From assembly GCA_021814895.1 (NCBI GenBank), contig JAKAHN010000018.1, positions 1-10,303 of the forward strand: a stretch of 10,303 nucleotides of DNA. Direction: 5' to 3'. How positions within the stretch are numbered: position 1 is the stretch's first letter; each line of letters begins with the position of its first letter. Origin of the DNA: a bacterium (GTDB lineage Bacteria > Patescibacteriota > Minisyncoccia > Phycocordibacterales > 2-02-FULL-43-11). The translations under genes and the position numbers were made by a program. Below are positions 4,605-10,303 of the stretch, piece after piece. Under the pieces are notes generated by a model that was not told the origin of the DNA, ran no database searches, and was given only the letters and a program-made list of their open reading frames with translations.

Positions 4605-6035
4605 CTAATCGCTTGTCCAGCTTAATAATTGATAACCAGAAGTGGAAAGCGGAAAAAATGGTGGCGGATTATATAAAAGGTTTCCGTCGTAATTGCTATA
4701 AGTATTTACATACCCTGAAATTATCGTAGTGCCAGAGTTATTAACCCAACTCCACGTCCACTGACCGAATGTCATTATTGAACCGTAAATAGTTATGCTA
4801 TTTTTAATATTGTCATAGGGATAATAAAAAATTTGACAACTCCCGTGTTGAGCAATCATAGCGGCGTCAATTTCTAGATTATCCGGAGCCCCATACGTAA
4901 CAATGATATTTTTTTCAGACAACAACCCTAAAACATCATTGCCGTTTTTCGAATTATAGACTATATTATTTGGAATATAAATTGTGTGTGGCGATTTTGA
5001 ACCATATGGTAATTCAGCTGCCGCCACAGTTACCCTTCCCTTAACGACTCCTTCAACCCAAACATCGTCCTCAACAAAAATCATTCCATTTGCCGGTATC
5101 GGACTGGTAAATTCAAAAATTCTTTTATTGTAGTCAATATTTTCATTGTGTGTAGCGCCATTTACATCGTAACCTTTTGGAGTATTCGTAAGGTTTTGAA
5201 CCGTATATACAGTAACTGTGCCATCACTGTTAAACACAAGAGAATAACCTTTATGATTTGAGGGTGATAGATAAATGCCCCCTGTTTGAGCGGCGGTTTT
5301 CATAATTGCCAAATCAGAGGTCAGAGTAGAAAAATCAACCGCTGGCACGGGAAATTGCCAAAAATTCTTTGTAGCCTGCAAAGCATCTCCCCAAACTCCA
5401 TTTTGAATTTTTGGACATGGACTGCCTTGATTTACAGAACACATATAGGTGGACTTCGCGGACTGAATCGGAGCATTGCCCGTACCGTCAAAACGAACTC
5501 CATTATTTGACTGAAGTTGTCCACCGACACTCTCAGAGGAACCTATCCAGATTATATCATTGCTTAAAAATGCGTATTTTGTCAGTGATGCAACTCCATA
5601 TCTCGTGGTAATCGTTCTCTTTATTCCCGGGTTATTGTTTGTCCAACCGGTTGATGTGATTTTTAAAATTGTTGATCCGACGGGTGGAGGAGTTATAACC
5701 AAACTGAATTTCCCGACACTTGTTTGAGTATCATAATCTTTATAATCGTGGACATACGGTCCGTTATTTTCCGTCCCATCTTTATAATCAGACGGAAAAT
5801 GGGCCAAGTGCCATTGATAATAATTTATACCCGCCTCGGCAATTTGCAAAGCTTCTTCTTTGTCAACCGTCGAGCGAAGCACTTTTATTTCGGATGTGAT
5901 AACTGAAACAAAAGGAAACATCATAAAAATCGCCAGCGAGATTATTATAATTAAAAAAACCAACATACTGCCTTTTTTTTGTTTTTTGCAGAGATTTTTT
6001 AAAATCATCATTTTGTTTTTTCCATTTTTATTCAT
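4605..6035 (-). CDS. PilX-like minor prepilin, large C-terminal domain
   Basis: A 476-residue pilin-like protein. A basic leader (residues 1-22, ending KKQKKG) is followed by SMLVFLIIIISLAIF and then by an amphipathic helix with EALQIAEAGINYYQWHLA, the pattern of PilX N-terminal sequences. The presumed prepilin-peptidase site is Gly22/Ser23. The Glu normally at +5 of mature pilins is Phe27 here, which is tolerated in some minor pilins. The large remainder (about 90-476) looks like an extracellular beta-rich domain with repeated turns (FVEDDVWVEGVVKGRVTVAA, then NNIVYNSKNGND). Two Cys near 199 and 207 (MCSVNQGSPC) may form a disulfide. The start lies 9 bases after the PilW-like stop, showing tight co-transcription. 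Likely role: minor component of a type IV pilus or pseudopilus tip. It ends in TAG. Confidence 0.8.
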   Translation of the reverse strand: MNKNGKNKMMILKNLCKKQKKGSMLVFLIIIISLAIFMMFPFVSVITSEIKVLRSTVDKEEALQIAEAGINYYQWHLAHFPSDYKDGTENNGPYVHDYKDYDTQTSVGKFSLVITPPPVGSTILKITSTGWTNNNPGIKRTITTRYGVASLTKYAFLSNDIIWIGSSESVGGQLQSNNGVRFDGTGNAPIQSAKSTYMCSVNQGSPCPKIQNGVWGDALQATKNFWQFPVPAVDFSTLTSDLAIMKTAAQTGGIYLSPSNHKGYSLVFNSDGTVTVYTVQNLTNTPKGYDVNGATHNENIDYNKRIFEFTSPIPANGMIFVEDDVWVEGVVKGRVTVAAAELPYGSKSPHTIYIPNNIVYNSKNGNDVLGLLSEKNIIVTYGAPDNLEIDAAMIAQHGSCQIFYYPYDNIKNSITIYGSIMTFGQWTWSWVNNSGTTIISGYVNTYSNYDGNLLYNPPPFFPLSTSGYQLLSWTSD

Positions 6036-6044
6036 ATGATAAAT

Positions 6045-6671
6045 CTAATTACCTAAGTTAGTTTTTAAATTTCTAACTGTCCCGCCAGCGGTGATTGTTG
6101 AATTCACAGTTTCATTGCCTACTTGATTCGCAATTATGAGATTGATTTTAACAAATTTTACATTAGTAACATTGATAGGTTGCGACAAAGTATTGCCTCC
6201 CCCGTTAAAATCGCTACCGTAATAAGAAAAAATGGGAGTCCCGTCATTAGCAAGATTTGTTTCAACCGAACCCACTATCTCTGAAGAAGCAATATATTTA
6301 AAAGGGCTACCCGAAGGAGTAATTATACCTTTGTACAAAGTGGTGCCGGAAATAAAGTAACGAATTCTATCAACAAGGCCACTTTCCAAATCGTGGCTTG
6401 AATAAAAAATTATTTGATTGTCTCCCGCTTGGTTAATCGGGTAAGAACCGTCATTGCCGAAAGAAGCGTTTCTAATTTCGTTGGCAAAATTAAATGACAC
6501 CTTTCTGGCCATATCGACATTATTAAGAGCAGATGACTGTTGATTGTAATTTCTATACATAACTTGAATAACAGTTGTTACGCCAATTTCCAATAAAACA
6601 AAAACCGCCAAGGTTACCAAAGCCTCTACTAACGTAAATCCCTTGTTATTTTTTTTTATTAAATTTTTCAC
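6045..6671 (-). CDS. PilW/GspJ-like prepilin
   Basis: A 208-residue prepilin with a textbook N-terminus: a basic leader MKNLIKKNNKG, cleavage at Gly11/Phe12, then FTLVEALVTLAVFVLLEIG with the methylation/assembly Glu16 at mature position +5. The following helix (RNYNQQSSALNNVDMARK) and the segment SFNFANEIRNASFG are typical of PilW/GspJ minor pseudopilins; the C-terminal domain is beta-rich. The start codon is GTG (6671-6669), chosen because it places the leader at normal length. It lies 9 bases beyond the TAA that closes the full frame of the PilV-like gene. The protein would cross the inner membrane by its N-terminal helix, be processed by a prepilin peptidase encoded elsewhere, and help to prime the pilus. 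It ends in TAG. Confidence 0.88.
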   Translation of the reverse strand: MKNLIKKNNKGFTLVEALVTLAVFVLLEIGVTTVIQVMYRNYNQQSSALNNVDMARKVSFNFANEIRNASFGNDGSYPINQAGDNQIIFYSSHDLESGLVDRIRYFISGTTLYKGIITPSGSPFKYIASSEIVGSVETNLANDGTPIFSYYGSDFNGGGNTLSQPINVTNVKFVKINLIIANQVGNETVNSTITAGGTVRNLKTNLGN

Positions 6672-6680
6672 TTTAATTTT

Positions 6681-6776
6681 TTATTTATTTAGAAAAATCA
6701 TAACTGTGTTATAACCAATTTCAATTACCTCGTCGTTTATTGTCTCTGATAAATAACCGTCAGCATTGGCCGTTCA
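6681..6776 (-). pseudogene. In-frame tail of the PilV-like gene beyond the TGA
   Basis: After the TGA at 6776-6774 the same frame stays open for 30 codons and closes with TAA at 6683-6681. It reads TANADGYLSETINDEVIEIG and then YNTVMIFLNK, which completes the last beta domain in the usual way: the module pattern 'DVETGTYS-x-TANADGYLSE' matches the Gly-Tyr turn of the earlier modules (KSGYSSDQTY). If the TGA were a sense codon, most simply TGG Trp, the protein would have 604 residues and its stop would lie 9 bases before the PilW-like start, the same spacing as at the next gene junction. With the TGA the gap is 102 bases. Confidence 0.75.
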
Positions 6777-8495
6777 ACTATAAGTGCCCGTTTCCACATC
6801 TGGAAACATTACCTGCCCAGGAGTAAAACAACCAGAAACGTAATTTATATCCGTACTGGAAAGCACCGGCGTTTGGGTGTCATCTTCTGTTTGAAGGTAT
6901 GCTTTATAACGCACGTAACGTTTATTATTATTAACCGAATTAATCGTCTCTCCAGGAGTTATATAGAAAGAAGAGTTGGTGCCGTCAGGACCGATAAAAT
7001 CCCAGGTGGTGGTCGCAGGATCATCTGAAGTGGCAATTTGAAATTTTAAAGAAGTTGATGGATTTTGCGATGTTGGTTGCCAAAACAAAGTTGTATAAGA
7101 AGTAACATCTGTACCAGTATCAAAAATTGAAGATGTTAATGAACCGGCATTCACATAATGTCCGCCAAAATTGGCCAGACGAACACCCGAAGGAGTACCG
7201 TCAACACTTATTCCGCCGTTATCTTCGAAATATTTTGTGGAATCAATAAAATCTGTCTGACCCGGACCGCCAATCCAATTATTTTGACTCCAAATGCTTC
7301 CGCCTGTAATTTTACTTGATTCTTCTCCAGAACTCATAGAATGAAGCGTAACTGTTGCCCCTTCAATCGGATTTCCACTTGAAGCATCTTTTACAATAAC
7401 TAAAACACTACTATTAGAGCTTGGCCCTAATATCAAACTTTCTGTTTGGCTGGTATTTGGCAAGATATTAATTTGTTGAACGGGCGAAGATCCATATACC
7501 ATATAAGTATTACCGGTAAGAGTTGGCGTGTAATTATCCCATTCAATGTTGTTGATTACCTTCTTGCCATTGGTATCAGTAATATAATTGTTATCAAATT
7601 TTAACAAATCCGGTCCCGTACCAATTAACTTAGAACCCTTAACTGAAACTCCAATGTCTGAAATAGGGTTGCAGGTTTGATTCAAAGTACTGATTGTTAG
7701 ATTGCTTAATAAGTCTATAGAAAAACTAACTTCCGTCACTTGTCCGTTCGCAATTGTGGAATCTGGCTTTGTCGGATTAGGATTACTAGCACTGATTGGA
7801 TAAGTTTGATCAGAAGAATATCCGCTTTTGGTTACAACAATATGGTAACTATTGTCACTGTTCGGCAAACCAACCTCAATCCAATTTCCATTGCTATCGC
7901 TCGTTCTGGTTAAATCAATAGCCGGCGAAACATCAGAATTCGTAATTTTAATGGTGGCTCCGGAAATAGGTTGCCCAACAGCATCAAAGACTTTAATATA
8001 AAGCGCTCCGCCATTTTCCAAATTCTCAAGCCCTTTCGGCACAATGTTTGTTAAAAAATTGCTAGTAGAATCAGTAGCTGTATTTTCTACATACAATTTA
8101 ATTTGTTTATAATCGTTTGGAGCAAAATCGTCGCCGGCCAAGACTGTGCCATCTGACGAATCGTCAACATAACTGACAGCGTAATAAATTTTATAATCCA
8201 CTCCGTTCACATTAGCAACAACTGCATTTGGCAAATCGGGTAAAATGCCGTGAGGGTTTCCATTTATCGTGCCGACATCAGAATATGGCAGATTCCTGGC
8301 CACTTCCAAATATTGATCGGCTAAAGCAGAAATGGTAATTTCTTCTCTGGCAAATCCTACTCCTTTTATAATCAAAGTTGAAACTTCATATATACCCAAC
8401 ATTAAAACAGCAAAAATACCGATACTGATAACCGATTCAGCCAACAAAAATCCGGCTGATTTTAGTTTTATTTCTTTTGGATGAGCTATGATCAT
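6774..8495 (-). CDS. PilV-like prepilin with carboxypeptidase-regulatory-like surface domains, ended by an in-frame TGA
   Basis: First gene of the pilin operon, 573 residues up to TGA at 6776-6774. The prepilin leader ends at Gly15; FLLAESVISIGIFAVLML follows with Glu20 at +5. Residues 30-150 form a PilV-like part. Then come domains resembling carboxypeptidase-regulatory or Ig-like modules: about 160-240 (GGALYIKVFDAVGQPISGATI, then SDSNGNWIEVGLP and KSGYSS), about 262-350 (NLTISTLNQTCNPISDIGV) and about 358 on (VLVIVKDASSGNPIEGATVTL). A Lamin/F5-8-like beta segment follows (FDTGTDVTSYTTLFWQP, DDTQTPVLSSTDINYVSG). The last module (GQVMFPDVETGTYS) is cut off in mid-domain by the TGA. Such stacked modules suggest an adhesive or tip-displayed pilin. 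Coding clearly continues past the stop (see next entry), so the gene is either recently damaged, read through, or carries a sequencing error. Confidence 0.85.
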   Translation of the reverse strand: MIIAHPKEIKLKSAGFLLAESVISIGIFAVLMLGIYEVSTLIIKGVGFAREEITISALADQYLEVARNLPYSDVGTINGNPHGILPDLPNAVVANVNGVDYKIYYAVSYVDDSSDGTVLAGDDFAPNDYKQIKLYVENTATDSTSNFLTNIVPKGLENLENGGALYIKVFDAVGQPISGATIKITNSDVSPAIDLTRTSDSNGNWIEVGLPNSDNSYHIVVTKSGYSSDQTYPISASNPNPTKPDSTIANGQVTEVSFSIDLLSNLTISTLNQTCNPISDIGVSVKGSKLIGTGPDLLKFDNNYITDTNGKKVINNIEWDNYTPTLTGNTYMVYGSSPVQQINILPNTSQTESLILGPSSNSSVLVIVKDASSGNPIEGATVTLHSMSSGEESSKITGGSIWSQNNWIGGPGQTDFIDSTKYFEDNGGISVDGTPSGVRLANFGGHYVNAGSLTSSIFDTGTDVTSYTTLFWQPTSQNPSTSLKFQIATSDDPATTTWDFIGPDGTNSSFYITPGETINSVNNNKRYVRYKAYLQTEDDTQTPVLSSTDINYVSGCFTPGQVMFPDVETGTYS

Positions 8496-9355: not shown

Positions 9356-10294
9356 CTATTTGAAAACAGCAGAACCGCTATCAAATTTCAAATCAAAAAT
9401 CAGTTCGCCCTTTGAAGTAAAGTGATAACTTTGAATTTCACCAAGTATTTTTGTGAAATCCCCCTCTTGAGAATTTTCGCAATACATCATCGTAGAAGCA
9501 ATCTTGCCGAAAGTTATTTTATCACCGCTAACAACATACTTACCGCCGACATTGTTGCAATCAGTTTTAGCCGAAAATGTATTATCGTTCTTGAAAGTCA
9601 GAGTAAACGTCTTCCCAAAATCGGGTTTAATTGTTTTTCCATCATTATAAATGGTACTTATCCAATTCCATGTTTTCATACTCAAAGTCATTCTTGCCGG
9701 GTCAGCTTCGCCTTCAAAATTTTGGACAACTTCTCCAAACTGCATTATTTTCGGGTCAAATAAAAGATAAAGACTTTTACCCATTGATGGCTGAACTGCG
9801 AAACTCTCTCCCGGCGCTCTGTCGGCATAATTTACAACCAAAATATTTCCTTTCATATTTGTCGTCTGAGGAGCAATTCGGTCTCCAATAAATAAGCCGC
9901 GCGAACCAACATATCCGTTCATGGTGTTCAAAGCGACCGCCACATAATAGAAAAGCCCACTTCCGCCTGAACTTTGGGTCAAAAGAAATGCTGTGTCTTC
10001 CCTGCCATCGCCGTCAAAATCGTATTTAACCTCATTGCCAAAATAGCGAGTTATTATTTTTGAAGCAGAATTCGGAACAATATCAACTTCAGAAACGCCA
10101 TTTTTTAAAGTAATTTGTTTACTATCAATGATATAAGTCGCATCTTTCGGACTTAGTGCGCCAATAGAAACACCATTATCAATATCATTTTTATTCACCT
10201 TAATGCTGTAGATTATTAGACAAGCAAAAACTGTCAACACTAAAATTCCAGCAATAATCAAAAGGGTTCTTGTTTTTACAGAATTAAAATTCAT
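9356..10294 (-). CDS. Membrane-anchored META-domain protein
   Basis: A 312-residue protein with one N-terminal membrane helix (about 10-31) after a basic start, so most of it lies outside the cytoplasmic membrane. The middle has DFDGDGRED at residues 92-100, a calcium-loop-like motif seen in FG-GAP/VCBS-type repeats, followed by FLLTQSSGGSGLFYYVAVAL. The C-terminal 100 residues form a META (HslJ-like) domain: MKTWNWISTIYNDG, GKTFTLTFKNDNTFSA, TDCNNVGGKY and MMYCENSQEGDF are its recognisable blocks; two Cys are in the usual region. HslJ relatives are linked to heat and novobiocin resistance and motility in other bacteria; the role here is not known. The PII-like gene follows with its own promoter. 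The gene ends in TAG, and its own promoter lies mostly outside the window. Confidence 0.85.
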   Translation of the reverse strand: MNFNSVKTRTLLIIAGILVLTVFACLIIYSIKVNKNDIDNGVSIGALSPKDATYIIDSKQITLKNGVSEVDIVPNSASKIITRYFGNEVKYDFDGDGREDTAFLLTQSSGGSGLFYYVAVALNTMNGYVGSRGLFIGDRIAPQTTNMKGNILVVNYADRAPGESFAVQPSMGKSLYLLFDPKIMQFGEVVQNFEGEADPARMTLSMKTWNWISTIYNDGKTIKPDFGKTFTLTFKNDNTFSAKTDCNNVGGKYVVSGDKITFGKIASTMMYCENSQEGDFTKILGEIQSYHFTSKGELIFDLKFDSGSAVFK

Positions 10295-10303
10295 TGTCGA
10301 TCG

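Follow-up and report, generated by a model that had tools for sequence, protein, structure and literature searches.

An isolated in-frame TGA near the end of a multi-module type IV pilin-like gene in the draft genome of a probable patescibacterium

A published review (PMC13293708) describes type IV pili as an apparent hallmark of the Patescibacteria phylum. The closest described relatives of the gene studied here are large prepilin-type Patescibacteria proteins, represented by 119 database proteins (P0002–P0120) and ten genome contigs (L021–L030, seven of which are titled Candidatus Staskawiczbacteria). These share with our sequence a similar N-terminus, CarboxypepD_reg-like modules and a conserved C-terminal end, and the listed homologues are 578 to 626 amino acids long. 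They differ from it in that every row with a residue at the position in question has a sense codon there, where our sequence has TGA. A looser likeness extends to sortase-type pilins and Cna-B/SpaA-like beta modules in the PDB, with strings of prealbumin- or Ig-like beta modules resembling those in the predicted model of P0001, a near-identical intact protein. Foldseek searches with this model returned sortase-pilin and other Ig-like chains with TM-scores of at most 0.33 in the 50 rows listed, a likeness at the level of single modules. Sortase pilins are not known to be built with a type IV prepilin-type N-terminal helix; in contrast, the N-terminus here is such a helix. No paper on this gene appeared among those listed in our literature search.

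Here, we examine this TGA, which lies 30 codons before the end of the pilin-like frame, and conclude that it is very probably an isolated and recent nonsense difference, either genuine or introduced by draft assembly. It affects one assembled haplotype of a type IV pilin-like gene with several modules, in an uncultured bacterium that is probably patescibacterial, going by the names of the homologues. An isolated premature stop in a conserved pilin-like gene, whether real or an artefact, is ordinary.

A pilin-like frame with one internal stop

Within the window (the whole stretch of 10,303 nucleotides that was analysed), the minus-strand frame from 8495 to 6681 opens with ATG and runs through 573 sense codons to a TGA (6776–6774), followed by 30 further sense codons and a TAA (6683–6681). 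No other stop or frameshift was seen in this frame. The TAA is separated by 9 bases from the GTG (6671) that starts the next gene, and the gap at the junction after that (6045 to 6035) is also 9 bases; the first-pass annotation had described both the internal TGA and the equal spacing, and both are borne out. The features discussed below are as follows.

6774..8495, minus strand: open stretch of 573 codons from a large type IV pilin-like gene, closing with the TGA (from the frame and Pfam matches); a prepilin-type helix at the N-terminus precedes beta modules of the carboxypeptidase-regulatory-like (prealbumin/Ig-like) type (as modelled for P0001)
6774..6776, minus strand: in-frame TGA, leucine in near-identical P0001; relatives mainly carry V, L, A or I (alignments)
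6681..6773, minus strand: conserved 30-codon tail and TAA, completing the last beta module (homologue alignment, model, Pfam)
6045..6671, minus strand: next gene, a 208-residue minor pilin with a prepilin-type N-terminal methylation motif (PF07963 and the prepilin domain model TIGR02532, both over cut-off)
4605..6035, minus strand: 476-residue gene, judged PilX-like from its context (4 of the 120 homologues listed have PF14341) and identical at the protein level to database entry P0121

Pfam searches of the window protein matched CarboxypepD_reg and related beta modules, SpaA (PF17802) among them. CarboxypepD_reg (PF13620) scored 46.6 bits over two stretches in the 573-residue form and 60.0 bits over three stretches in P0001, which carries the tail, both above the gathering cut-off of 32.3. 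The prepilin cleavage/methylation model PF07963 gave no match at E 0.1 in the window protein or P0001, and a G-FLLAE-type motif is visible by eye; of two relatives scanned, P0003 scored 24.8 bits (above the cut-off of 21.2) and P0010 18.9 (below it), and a PF07963 match is precomputed for many of the homologues. Comparison of the family profile with the PDB returned three weak matches to pilin N-termini (E 0.029 to 0.096). PilV models, TIGR02523 among them, did not match intact P0001 at E 0.1, and the earlier label "PilV-like" is only loosely apt, as TIGR02523 instead matches the 208-residue product of the next gene, below cut-off (23.0 bits against 52.2).

The predicted structure of P0001 (best of five models, which ranged in mean pLDDT from 68.1 to 85.3; mean pLDDT 85.3, pTM 0.70) consists of a long N-terminal helix at residues 18–67 and then a string of beta modules. 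This long N-terminal helix is hydrophobic, and over the N-terminal part the window frame has the same residues as P0001 except at positions 2 and 8. Residue 574, the position of the TGA, falls inside a strand (570–577) in the model, and two further strands (584–591 and 594–602) would be lost on truncation; the model blocks from residue 561 onward have pLDDT values of 93–95. The proposal that the sequence behind the TGA completes the last beta module thus agrees with the model, with the C-termini of homologues and with the third CarboxypepD_reg stretch. The gene product is therefore one of the large, modular surface proteins resembling type IV pilins that are common in Patescibacteria. Three Staskawiczbacteria contigs (L028–L030) have homologous frames of 1094–1132 codons against about 600 elsewhere; their N-terminal part and C-terminal end match, so the middle appears to have expanded.

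The stop position and the tail among relatives

We aligned the window frame with 120 listed homologues, the best 120 of at least 766 found in a candidate set of capped size. The TGA column in these proteins holds V (47), L (33), A (19), I (16), T (3) and M (1), with one gap; neither tryptophan nor glycine occurs among the 119 with a residue there, and none of the 120 has a stop. The 30-residue tail aligns with the C-termini of 119 of these best 120 homologues. The one gap belongs to P0105, which departs from the family ahead of the TGA column and ends in unrelated sequence, and P0057 has the tail but ends 21 residues after the column.

At the DNA level, all 19 loci with a homologue have a sense codon at the stop site (L6, I5, V4, Y2, A1, T1), none of them for tryptophan. 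Nine of these loci come from the 41 genomes searched, the source genome included, and ten from genome contigs; L001, which is the window, and L011–L020, ten matches that are short and partial, do not enter the count. Assignment to the column is less sure for L009, where the middle part is missing, for L010, with a BLAST alignment only to residue 364, and for L028–L030, with BLAST alignments only to about residue 386–388. By these alignments the 30-residue continuation behind the TGA is the family's normal C-terminus rather than a product of chance. The first-pass annotation had named a contrary outcome, in which orthologues would all end at the TGA with unrelated sequence behind it; this did not occur, as 119 of the 120 listed homologues keep the tail.

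The closest relative, P0001 (604 amino acids), differs from the read-through frame at only 3 of 604 residues: 2, 8 and 574, the last being leucine at the stop position. The tail of the window is identical to that of P0001, and has thus not decayed. P0001 represents four member sequences and two contigs, the longest of 12,159 bases. Given the differences at residues 2 and 8 it may come from another strain rather than from the same population, and it could even stem from the sample used here, assembled a second time; the comparison is at the protein level, where synonymous differences are invisible. Because P0001 is identical except at residues 2, 8 and 574, and the 476-residue neighbour is without any difference from P0121, the stop is a recent or an artificial change. 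The identity to P0121 does not separate an error from an allele, as synonymous differences are invisible in proteins here too. Judging from these relatives, the residue before the change was most likely leucine; the earlier proposal of a TGG codon finds no support in the 119 proteins, the 19 DNA loci or P0001.

TGA in the source genome and the readings of the stop

A search for prfB in the source genome (G000) identified three places, all below the curated cut-off. Two of them (on C35 and C23; L031 and L032) carry SPF and GGQ, which we take to be the RF2 motif, and the third carries PAT, which we take to be that of RF1. In the RF2-like frames the match to prfB begins only at model positions 112 and 114, and the C35 frame reaches the contig end; the presence of two RF2-like genes in one draft may reflect contamination, estimated at 7.63%, or a short RF2 paralogue. 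The window and 33 source-genome loci (86,840 bases, partly overlapping) together hold 66 distinct frames that span 120 codons or more, of which 33 end with TAA, 18 with TAG and 15 with TGA; the count includes the frame in question and did not require that a frame be a gene. Median distances to the next in-frame stop (17.5 codons after TGA, 13.5 after TAG and 9.5 after TAA, for 14, 16 and 32 frames) were left unused as too few frames were available.

ARAGORN found no UCA anticodon among 35 tRNA places in the draft, and tRNA-Trp has CCA; the set is incomplete, so this absence is weak evidence when taken alone. Among the tRNAs at these 35 places, those for Ile, Thr, Tyr, Asp and His are missing; the completeness of the genome is put at 91%. 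One candidate suppressor, called as "tRNA-Stop (tta)" at C24:5408–5480 (L050), has a loop CTTTTAA between CTCC and GGAG that suggests a tRNA-Lys(UUU), and could not read TGA in any case. A selenocysteine tRNA was likewise rejected as a candidate, since none scored above cut-off in the draft and the 11 sub-cut-off matches coincide with tRNA places already listed. The RNA around the stop (117 bases) folds no better than shuffled sequences (z 0.64; 150 of 200 shuffles as good). TGA looks like a normal stop in the source genome.

These results bear directly on the idea that programmed or leaky UGA readthrough yields two forms of the pilin, one of them lacking the C-terminal strands. In its favour stand the intact, in-frame tail and a TAA whose 9-base distance to the next gene recurs at the following junction. 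However, it is the extension that is conserved among relatives and not the stop codon, which is found in none of the 120 listed proteins and none of the 19 loci; the RNA fold is unremarkable, the draft yielded neither a UCA-anticodon tRNA nor an over-cut-off Sec tRNA, and the short form would, by the model, be left with an incomplete beta module. The stop is followed by A, unlike the leaky context of E. coli. Nothing specific supports readthrough here, and we regard it as very improbable. Genome-wide reassignment of TGA to a residue, as in Gracilibacteria and SR1 (glycine), is more improbable still, to the point of being negligible: the named homologues come from Patescibacteria, a phylum with known cases of UGA recoding, but the review that describes these limits recoding to Gracilibacteria/JAEDAM01 (PMC13293708), and in this draft genes with RF2 motifs are present, TGA ends 15 of the 66 long frames, the 35 (incomplete) tRNA places include no UCA anticodon, and the column is never glycine in the 119 listed homologues with a residue.

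We therefore favor an isolated nonsense difference, in which a codon for leucine in near-identical P0001 has become TGA in our sequence. With a real base, translation would end at codon 573 and leave the last beta module without its final strands, and this module would probably misfold to give a damaged or tail-less pilin. If instead assembly or sequencing introduced the base in error, the gene would simply be intact. The stop is not a designed device under either reading, and we hold the two to be at roughly even odds, by judgement rather than calculation. The draft of the source genome comprises 160 contigs, with an estimated completeness of 90.83% and contamination of 7.63%, and window positions 10174–10299 exactly repeat C29:1–126 of the same genome, an overlap of 126 bases that suggests a break typical of a short-read assembly graph. 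This draft state and the contig overlap make a consensus error or strain mixing plausible. Of the three options raised at the outset, a recent change and a sequencing error both stand and are together very likely; the third, readthrough giving two forms, is disfavoured by the evidence and has no specific support.

Two extensions of a real allele deserve mention. As a special case of the isolated nonsense difference, the truncated allele could be fixed in the strain and the pilin could be becoming a pseudogene; the same-genus genome G001 lacks a full-length homologue, so the gene may be dispensable in the lineage. We consider this unlikely: apart from the TGA the frame shows neither a stop nor a frameshift, the frames next to it are open, its tail has not decayed, and G001 is itself a draft, 91% complete. 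There is also a slim chance that the population carries both intact and stop alleles and that low-level UGA decoding leaves some full-length pilin, in which case cells would differ in the end module of a surface pilin by which they contact a host or neighbour.

In practice the stop matters little beyond annotation: gene callers will clip the last 30 residues off the pilin and leave a false 102-base gap before the next gene, although these residues belong to a conserved fold. The case also illustrates that, before readthrough is proposed from a draft metagenome genome, a lone internal stop should be compared with near-identical copies.

Neighbouring genes and origin of the locus

The frames neighbouring the pilin gene are open. 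The 208-residue product scores below cut-off with the minor-pilin equivalog models. Minor-pilin genes are known in the order PilV-PilW-PilX, and the succession of the pilin, the 208-residue prepilin-like gene and the 476-residue gene looks, going by its motifs, like a minor-pilin operon arrangement.

The pilin of the window is 57–62% identical to its homologues on nine of ten named genome contigs and 45% to the tenth, and only 36–40% in the eight best same-order matches. G001 has only partial-domain matches, in a 2343-codon frame. These pilin identities raised the suspicion of a contaminant contig. However, among nine genomes compared, both the DnaJ (73%) and the META-domain protein (55%) of the window are closest to same-genus G001, and going by these two proteins the contig seems to belong to this lineage. 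With the pilin nearer to other named contigs and DnaJ nearer to the same genus, horizontal exchange of the pilin locus is possible.
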